In this document: one piece after another, positions 6,983 to 8,712 of the stretch
How positions within the stretch are numbered: position 1 is the first letter of the stretch
How the letters are laid out: each line of letters opens with the position of its first letter
Assembly (NCBI RefSeq): GCF_026616205.1
Contig: NZ_JANHGR010000002.1
Coordinates: 1 to 64,000, forward strand
Source: Halolamina litorea
Lineage (GTDB): Archaea > Halobacteriota > Halobacteria > Halobacteriales > Haloferacaceae
Direction: 5' to 3'
DNA length: 64,000 nucleotides
Position numbers and translations under genes: made by a program
Notes under the pieces: model-generated
The model's input: only the letters and a program-made list of their open reading frames with translations
What the model was told of the DNA's origin: nothing
The model's database searches: none

Positions 6983-8487
6983 CAGTAGATCACCTCCGCG
7001 TTCCGCAGGAACTCGAGGTCCGCGAGCGTACCGTGCAGGTCGCGGATGTCTTCGGCGCCGGTGTAGAGCATCGCCAGCCGCTCCAGGGCGAGCCCCCAGG
7101 CCATCACGTCACACTCGACGCCCAGCGGCGTCAGCACCTCCTCGCGGAAGATGCCGGAGTTGCCGATCTCGATCAGTTCGTCGGTCTCGGGGTGGCGCCC
7201 GAACAGCTCGAAACTCGGCTCCGTGTAGGGGTTGTAGTGGGGTTTGAACTGCACGTCCGTGATGCCGAACTGGGCGTAGAACTCCTCGAAGGTGCCCATC
7301 AGGTCCCGGACCGAGAGGTCCTCGGCCATCACCCAGCCCTCGATCTGGAAGAACTCCAGCAGGTGCGTCGAGTCGATTGTGTCGTTCCGGTAGGCCTTCT
7401 CCACCGAGAAGTAGCGCTGGGGCGGCTCCAGTTCACCCTCGGCGGCCCCCGAGAGGTAGCGCATCGAGAGCGAAGTCGTGTGGCCCCGAAGCGCGACCTC
7501 GCGGGCGAAGTCCTCGCTCCACGGCGAGTGGTAGCCGTCGCCGTCGGGACCGACGCCGTTGCGGTGGGCGTTCTCGACAGCCTCGACGAGGTCCTCGGGG
7601 AGGTTCTCGACGGGGTCAACGTCCAGCGCGAACCGGTCCCAGTGGGTCCGTGCAGGGTGGTCCTGGGGCATGAACAGCGCGTCGTTGATCCAGAAGTCCG
7701 CGTCGGCGTGGGGGCCGTCCATCTCCTGGAACCCCATCCCGACGAGCACGTCCTTCACGCGCTCTGCGGCCTGCCGGAGCACGTGGACCTTCCCCGCGCC
7801 GGCCTCGGTCGCGTCGGCCTCGACGTTGTAGTCGGTGAACTCGACGTCCTCCCACTCCCCGGAGGTCAGCATCTCGGGGGTGAGTTGGGCGGCGGTCTCC
7901 GCTGCTTCGACGCCGGCCATCATGGCGTCGACGCCGGCGTCGGTGAGCGTGACCGAGCGGACCGTGCGCTCCTCGCGCTCGATCAGCCCGCGCTCCTCCA
8001 GTCGGTCCAGTACGCCGGCGTCGTCGACGGATCGGCCGGTCGCCAGTTCTTCGAGTGCAGCCACTTCGGGGTCGCTGTCGGGGTCGGCGTCCGGGTCGGC
8101 CGTGACCTCGCCGCTCTCGATCTGCCCGTAGCCCTTCCGGGCGAAGTTCGAGAGCGCGATGTCGACCTGCGGGCCTTCGAGTCCGGCGGCGCCAATGACC
8201 TGCCCCATCGGCGCCGCGTCGGTGCCGGCACCGGCGTCGATGGCGGCGCGGTAGAACCGCACCTCCGGCAGGCCCGTTTCGAGGTACGTCTCGGCCTCGT
8301 CGGTGATCGAGACGGTCTCCTCGACCTCGCTCTCGACGGCGAGGAGTCCTTCCTCCTCCAGTTCGAAGACGGCGGTCGTGGCCGCCGCCTCGTCGATCCC
8401 CGCCGCGTCGGCGAGTTCGGGGATCGGCTGTGCGTCAGTCGCGCTCGCGGCCTCGAGGGCCGCGACCTGTCGTTCCGGGAGTCGCAT
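6982..8487 (-). CDS. pheS: Phenylalanine--tRNA ligase, alpha subunit
   Basis: The catalytic subunit of PheRS (501 residues). The N-terminal 200 residues are helical winged-helix repeats that bind tRNA (MRLPERQVAALEAASATDAQ and following). The class II core follows, with motif 2 region GHTTSLSMRYL, the FFQIEGWVMAEDLS strand, the phenylalanine-pocket segment FKPHYNPYTEPSFELFGRH, and motif 3 VMAWGLALERLAMLYTG. The start at 8487 has no Shine-Dalgarno sequence. It lies about 190 nt inside a transcript that, from promoter position, should begin at 8676 with a Phe-rich leader peptide, so pheS expression is a candidate for attenuation. Confidence 0.97.
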   Translation of the reverse strand: MRLPERQVAALEAASATDAQPIPELADAAGIDEAAATTAVFELEEEGLLAVESEVEETVSITDEAETYLETGLPEVRFYRAAIDAGAGTDAAPMGQVIGAAGLEGPQVDIALSNFARKGYGQIESGEVTADPDADPDSDPEVAALEELATGRSVDDAGVLDRLEERGLIEREERTVRSVTLTDAGVDAMMAGVEAAETAAQLTPEMLTSGEWEDVEFTDYNVEADATEAGAGKVHVLRQAAERVKDVLVGMGFQEMDGPHADADFWINDALFMPQDHPARTHWDRFALDVDPVENLPEDLVEAVENAHRNGVGPDGDGYHSPWSEDFAREVALRGHTTSLSMRYLSGAAEGELEPPQRYFSVEKAYRNDTIDSTHLLEFFQIEGWVMAEDLSVRDLMGTFEEFYAQFGITDVQFKPHYNPYTEPSFELFGRHPETDELIEIGNSGIFREEVLTPLGVECDVMAWGLALERLAMLYTGAEDIRDLHGTLADLEFLRNAEVIY

Positions 8488-8601: not shown

Positions 8602-8676
8602 TCAGGCGAAGAAGAACCCGACCCCGCGGCCGTCGGCTGCGTGGCGGTGCGTGCGGGCGGCGGTGTCGGGCGCCAT
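8602..8676 (-). CDS. Phe-rich leader peptide of pheST
   Basis: A 24-codon ORF on the pheST strand starts with MAPDTAARTH and ends GRGVGFFFA followed by TGA. The three phenylalanines are consecutive TTC codons at 8619-8611. Its ATG lies about 27 nt from the centre of a TATA-like TTTTTG, the normal spacing for a leaderless haloarchaeal mRNA, so it should be the first thing translated. E. coli pheST is controlled by the 14-residue PheM leader, which also holds three adjacent Phe codons; this ORF has the same layout. A ribosome stalled on the Phe codons would cover or approach the pairing segment at 8600-8593. Translation is inferred and not proven. Confidence 0.65.
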   Translation of the reverse strand: MAPDTAARTHRHAADGRGVGFFFA

Positions 8677-8697
8677 ACACCGGAGGATTCCCCGAGC

Positions 8698-8712
8698 GCG
8701 CAAAAAGCTTCC
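8698..8712 (-). promoter_or_regulatory. pheST operon promoter
   Basis: The minus strand reads GGAAGCTTTTTGCGC, with the T-run at 8705-8701. It is the only A/T-rich block between pheS and trpS on this strand. Expected transcription start is at about 8676-8680, right at the leader-peptide ATG. Confidence 0.6.

Follow-up and report, generated by a model that had tools for sequence, protein, structure and literature searches.

A conserved, probable phenylalanine leader-peptide region precedes pheST in Halobacteria

We analysed a 64,000-nt stretch of Halolamina litorea DNA (contig NZ_JANHGR010000002.1, hereafter the window), in which the minus strand carries endA, trpS, an ORF of 24 codons, pheS, pheT, and valS in this order (Table 1). 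NCBIfam matches to pheS and pheT agree with the identity that a first-pass annotation had given to the genes downstream of the short ORF. That annotation had also described the ORF as starting with ATG at 8676, ending with three TTC codons, GCC, and TGA, and lying 114 nt before pheS; its coordinates and sequence are correct, with the TTC TTC TTC GCC TGA end at 8616-8602 and the pheS ATG at 8487. The TATA-like box that it had placed for a leaderless start is present together with a BRE, and the leader ATG is located ~25-30 nt below the BRE/TATA, which is the right distance for a leaderless haloarchaeal mRNA.

Table 1. Features of the pheST leader region in the window
Feature	Position	Strand	Evidence or remark
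Leader promoter: BRE CGGAAGC and TATA box TTTTTG	8713-8707 (BRE), 8706-8701 (TATA box)	-	Sequence
Leader ORF, 24 codons, MAPDTAARTHRHAADGRGVGFFFA*	8676-8602	-	Sequence; class-wide conservation
Control codons TTC TTC TTC (Phe 21-23)	8616-8608	-	GFGFFF motif kept near the stop
RNA element, P1	8600-8593 pairs with 8561-8554 (whole element 8600-8554)	-	Covariation
RNA element, internal loop C-GGA / GAA-A	8592-8589 / 8565-8562	-	Covariation set
RNA element, P2	8588-8583 pairs with 8571-8566	-	Covariation
pheS, phenylalanine--tRNA ligase alpha subunit	8487-6982	-	NCBIfam NF003210, 579.7 bits
pheT, phenylalanine--tRNA ligase beta subunit; overlaps the pheS stop	6982-5147	-	TIGR00471, 424.9 bits
trpS, upstream of the leader on the same strand	10541-8952	-	NF008928, 953 bits; context, the leader does not require trpS

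Sampling pheS loci over the class Halobacteria (391 genomes searched and 80 named contigs), we found a leaderless ORF of the same plan before pheS in 67 of 79 genera and 9 of 10 families. The ORF has 22-30 codons and the consensus motifs M-A/V-S-E-P (N-terminal) and GFGFFFA (C-terminal), and nearly all leader loci place a BRE/TATA, typically CGCAACGTTTTTG, at an equal distance from the leader ATG. One fixed scoring rule recognized the leader ORF in 146 of 178 distinct pheS-upstream regions. The same rule found it in 0 of 178 regions on the reverse complement, in 0 of 178 at 900-440 nt upstream, and, in dinucleotide shuffles, yielded 0.4 leader-like ORFs on average. The leader ORF is not a chance occurrence, as the first-pass annotation had argued from the run of Phe codons, and the alignment across Halobacteria that it had suggested does recover a Phe-containing short ORF before pheS in the relatives. 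About 15% of genera are without the leader, and it was found in 0 of 20 sampled non-halobacterial loci of the same phylum. A dependence of the leader on trpS synteny was considered and rejected, since trpS occurs within 900 nt upstream in only 34 of 160 leader loci. Some extra leaders were recognized by eye, with a shifted frame, an insertion, or another start (loci L028, L041, L077, L114, and L117).

Phe makes up 13.6% of all leader residues, compared with 0.3% of those in the middle part, and 138 of 147 leaders carry three or four Phe among their last ten residues. The Phe codons are TTC in 414 cases and TTT in 114, so the third position is free and the first two are fixed. TTT accounts for 23% of Phe codons in the leader versus 4% in pheS, being 5.5 times commoner in the leader, and part of this excess is accounted for by the lower GC3 of the leader (0.73 versus 0.88 in pheS). 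Among close relatives, the whole leader shows only a mild excess of third-position changes, that is, a weak coding constraint. With the middle and the length varying, it is the Phe codons close to the stop that are retained, so selection acts on these codons and on the start motif, not on a protein fold.

Directly 3' of the leader stop lies a stem-loop in which an internal loop separates a helix P1 of ~7 bp from the variable hairpin P2. The internal loop has the form Y-GGA-C / Y-GAA-A, with three possible sheared G-A pairs; a kink-turn was rejected because the three-nucleotide bulge is absent. The element is present in 143 of 146 distinct leader regions. All 135 distinct elements have GAA and 129 of them have GGA, an invariance that arises partly by construction because these anchors belonged to the search pattern, with some variants allowed. 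Pairs 3-7 of P1 and 2-9 of P2 covary in the same 135 elements with z values of 5-12; helix pairing was also scored in the element search, and the partner-shuffle excess and the slid controls go far beyond that effect. In an alignment of 39 sequences, 82.9% of cells pair, versus 65.9 ± 1.3% when shuffled and at most 48% when slid, and both sides have changed in 108 cells versus 45.5 ± 5.6 when shuffled (0 of 500). A covariance model found the element at pheS in most of the 25 genomes searched, with no convincing match away from pheS; the match in Halolamina litorea has an E-value of 6.7e-6, the window sequence being itself among the sequences of the model. Rfam gave no match in the window region at E ≤ 1, and of four pheS-leader loci and one locus with the ilvB leader none reached the gathering threshold, so neither a T-box nor another catalogued RNA family was recognized there. 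The element defines a new family of structured RNAs, marked by an unusual, conserved internal loop and lacking a known terminator. In two Natrialbaceae loci (L041 and L177), an insertion lies within the Phe cluster (...SGFGFRPPKPAAFFAHL) and the RNA element is retained after the new stop. Loci L108 and L200 hold apparent decaying remnants of the leader or the RNA element before pheS, with trpS still adjacent.

Counted from the 3' end of the last Phe codon, GGA follows after 18.8 ± 2.0 nt (63 genera). Between zero and four codons follow the last Phe, and 5-17 nt separate the stop from the element; these two quantities are negatively correlated (r = -0.63 in 138 loci and -0.60 in 63 genera), and none of 20,000 permutations was as tight. 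The Phe-to-element distance is therefore constant because the stop position and the spacer compensate for each other, which is the signature of a Phe-codon-stalled ribosome that is read by a downstream RNA structure. With its start ~8-12 nt beyond the last Phe codon, P1 lies near the expected leading edge of a ribosome with the last Phe codon in the A site, the footprint used here being a general figure and not a haloarchaeal measurement. The RNA structure is located at a distance that would let the ribosome position decide its folding, and Phe codons at a fixed distance from a stem would be what a sensor of charged tRNA-Phe needs. In loci L013 and L027, the long inserts between the stop and P1 look like closed hairpins, which would preserve the distance in space.

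In published dRNA-seq data of Haloferax volcanii, the long 5' UTR of HVO_2948 (pheS) holds a 26-aa uORF at which transcription was mapped to start, and a further start at pheS itself is absent (Babski et al. 2016, PMC4983044 Table 2). The published uORF has 26 aa, a pI of 5.9, and a mass of 2772 Da, and the leaders of Haloferax relatives have 26 aa, a pI of 5.9, and a mass of 2792 Da. Judged from these relatives, and from the likeness in size, pI, place before pheS, and mapped start, the HVO_2948 uORF is very probably the same feature as the pheS leader. That source lists the uORF only; its Phe run, conservation, structure, and function are unmentioned there. The first-pass annotation had asked where the transcript begins, and in Haloferax volcanii the pheS transcript begins at the homologous uORF. 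Accordingly, an ORF with a cluster of cognate codons lies at the 5' end of the controlled transcript, the start being taken from Haloferax volcanii (PMC4983044).

A second BRE/TATA-like element, CGGAACCG(C/T)TAACTGAC, is located 30-50 nt before pheS in most genera, whether the leader is present or absent, and in most cases its CTAAC is found 30 or 35-37 nt upstream of the pheS ATG. At least 13 of its 17 positions match in 102 of 143 leader-bearing regions and in 22 of 31 that lack the leader, versus 1 of 980 shuffles. In Halolamina, the element is eroded (its place in the window is ~8540-8500). From these sequences, it is probably a proximal promoter that would give a near-leaderless pheS mRNA and that has probably been lost in Halolamina. 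The leader promoter is hence probably the main one in the window organism, and part of pheST expression may bypass the leader in most genomes, where the proximal element is conserved. In two loci of one genus (L081 and L082), the leader is kept only 35-37 nt before pheS, without the RNA element or the proximal promoter; these loci are a natural test of the contribution of the RNA element.

We interpret the region as phenylalanine leader-peptide control of pheST, with a probability of about 0.75. This reading is based on the conserved ORF, its Phe codons, the structure with its restriction to pheS in the 25 genomes, and the fixed spacing, together with the published transcript start of Haloferax volcanii and the leaders of like plan before ilvB and plasmid trpS; against it stand an output step without a known part (no U-tract and no conserved antiterminator), the proximal promoter-like element of most genomes, the single genus, represented by two genomes, that keeps the leader and not the RNA element, and the ~15% of genera without the leader. 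In E. coli, the pheST attenuator includes the leader peptide PheM with three adjacent Phe codons, and pheL of pheA is a further such leader. The archaeal region resembles PheM in that the mRNA for the same enzyme opens with a short Phe-rich ORF that has three adjacent Phe codons and is followed by RNA structure. However, the archaeal leader is leaderless, encodes a longer peptide, works with archaeal transcription and translation machinery, and is followed by a single conserved stem-loop with a GGA/GAA internal loop, without a terminator or an antiterminator. T runs of at least four are absent from the 22,631 nt between the leader stop and pheS in 160 loci (3.8 in shuffled sequences), and an alternative fold joining the end of the coding part to the 5' strand of P1 scores no better than shuffles (mean z 0.07, 137 loci); there is thus no terminator/antiterminator pair. 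Neither an intrinsic terminator with a U-tract before the first structural gene nor a mutually exclusive second hairpin with the leader-coding region was found. The likeness to PheM proposed in the first-pass annotation consequently holds for the sensing side, with a leaderless Phe-rich ORF at the 5' end and Phe codons at a fixed distance from a stem, and fails for an E. coli-style output. Classical attenuation by a terminator and an antiterminator, suggested by the same gene, the same amino acid, and the same Phe triplet, is on these grounds very unlikely. Three other pairings were considered as alternative folds and rejected: a stop-straddling GCCCGG/CCGGGC hairpin occurs in several Natrialbaceae only, a second CCGACCGAC copy near the window pheS, a possible competing partner of P1, is absent from other Halolamina, and a TTCGCC-GGCGAA pairing, judged by eye from the listing, exists in some loci and does not hold across families.

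The RNA element could instead be a putative protein site, used for PheRS autoregulation, in a manner like ThrRS on thrS, or by another RNA-binding protein, with the ORF merely affecting access. In E. coli, ThrRS autoregulates thrS via an RNA structure on the thrS mRNA and no leader peptide is involved; the likeness to the archaeal region is an RNA structure before a synthetase gene, and the difference is the leader peptide. A near-invariant GGA/GAA loop between variable helices is typical of a site of protein or tertiary contacts, the GAA matches the tRNA-Phe anticodon, and the element was found only at pheS in the 25 genomes. However, such a site leaves the conservation of the Phe codons and their fixed distance to the stem unexplained, and a stable run of sheared G-A pairs could bury the GAA; we consider this alternative unlikely. 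Slightly less likely still than classical attenuation is that the ORF encodes a functional small protein and shares its transcript with pheST by coincidence. In favour of this, M-A-S-E-P is conserved at the N-terminus besides the C-terminal GFGFFFA, and Babski et al. allow for independent small genes (PMC4983044). Against it, the middle varies in sequence and length, substitutions across the ORF as a whole reveal only weak coding constraint, Phe is restricted to the end, and the ORF accompanies pheS even where the upstream gene differs; M-A-S-E-P may be there for leaderless initiation. A programmed ribosomal frameshift at the Phe codons, with the stem 3' of them as the stimulator, is barely credible: a run of TTY codons does lie ~10 nt before a stable stem, but the commonest form, TTC TTC TTC, disallows a tandem -1 slip, and the listing has no conserved downstream frame.

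Under phenylalanine leader-peptide control, in which leader translation, the ribosome stall, the sign of the response, and the output are inferred, transcription would begin at or beside the leader ATG, so that the 5' end of the mRNA would itself be a start codon and would be loaded with a ribosome at once. The ribosome would reach the Phe codon cluster a few codons before the stop, where its progress would depend on Phe-tRNA-Phe. When Phe-tRNA-Phe is scarce, the ribosome would stall at the Phe codons with its leading edge at the foot of P1, and P1 and P2 could form. When it is plentiful, the ribosome would reach the stop, its leading edge would enter the P1 5' strand, and the element would be kept open while RNA polymerase moves on. 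The forming or melting of P1-GGA/GAA-P2 would then set the amount of pheST, and, by analogy with other synthetase leaders, a stalled ribosome would most likely raise it. Since there is no intrinsic terminator, the output is probably either factor-dependent, through aCPSF1/FttA-type termination on untranslated RNA, or exerted on RNA stability or pheS translation. Archaeal transcription terminates at poly(U) or by the action of aCPSF1/FttA on nascent RNA (PMC8116511). Termination by aCPSF1/FttA is the natural candidate for the output, with mRNA stability and pheS translation as candidate alternatives. Haloferax volcanii offers a direct genetic test of leader-peptide control.

To our knowledge, leader-peptide control is not established in any archaeon. 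Among bacteria, trpS1 of Streptomyces has a cognate-codon leader before a tRNA synthetase gene and is not terminator-free. Actinobacterial leader-peptide attenuators of amino acid genes (PMC1262725) share cognate-codon leaders with the archaeal region; they are bacterial and, unlike the archaeal leader, not terminator-free. The text of a 2021 review of archaeal transcription-translation coupling contains neither 'attenuat' nor 'leader peptide' (PMC8116511). The existence of the uORF is published; its meaning, its conservation, the RNA element, and the spacing rule were not found in the literature searched, which covers few subscription journals, and priority is not proven. The pheST leader is a real, conserved, and new archaeal leader-peptide region, with sensing like that of a bacterial amino acid leader and outside the terminator/antiterminator type; we infer its translation and regulation.

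Further leaders were searched for gene by gene. The pheA, hisS, trpC, trpD, and thrS genes of the same genomes showed nothing comparable in comparable scans, which indicates that the leader scan is not permissive. It is rather probable that the leaders of pheST, ilvB, and plasmid trpS (the last two described below) belong to a whole class of leaderless leader peptides in Halobacteria, cognate to Phe, Ile/Val, and Trp, respectively. Such peptides would read charged tRNA by ribosome position and act without intrinsic terminators, by way of RNA elements that differ between lineages and of archaeal factor-dependent termination or control of translation, which would amount to archaeal attenuation. 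The class-wide pheST case, backed by covariation and accompanied by the ilvB and trpS cases, would demonstrate a coupling of gene expression to ribosome position in archaea.

Before ilvB, a leader ORF is present in 12 of 12 loci from 11 genera and ends with IIVGA or similar (e.g., MTRRRYTGSPGVSVSLVIVGAA). The codons GTA GGG are conserved, and a stop-straddling hairpin, GUAGGGG...CCCCUAC, exists in most of these leaders. The Halolamina litorea copy lies upstream of position 1256167 of contig C1 of that genome (locus L228; the others are L218-L227 and L229). From its codons, this ORF is the predicted branched-chain amino acid (Ile/Val) leader.

Plasmid trpS genes related to HVO_A0127, each a second TrpRS gene, are preceded by Trp leaders of the MVSTSHANCWRWH type in a conserved inverted repeat, GTCCACTTCCC...GGGAAGTGGAC. 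The leader of 23 aa, MVSTSHANCWRWHAFREVDSIAV, and its relatives lie ~166-94 nt before the gene (loci L201, L202, and L207; also L203 and L204), and a 23-aa uORF is listed before HVO_A0127 (PMC4983044 Table 2). In Haladaptatus salinisoli, a possible Trp leader, MFAATTAGGRFWPTTAH, is located 105-51 nt before the plasmid trpS (locus L206), with the BRE/TATA GAAACGTTTTTC upstream.
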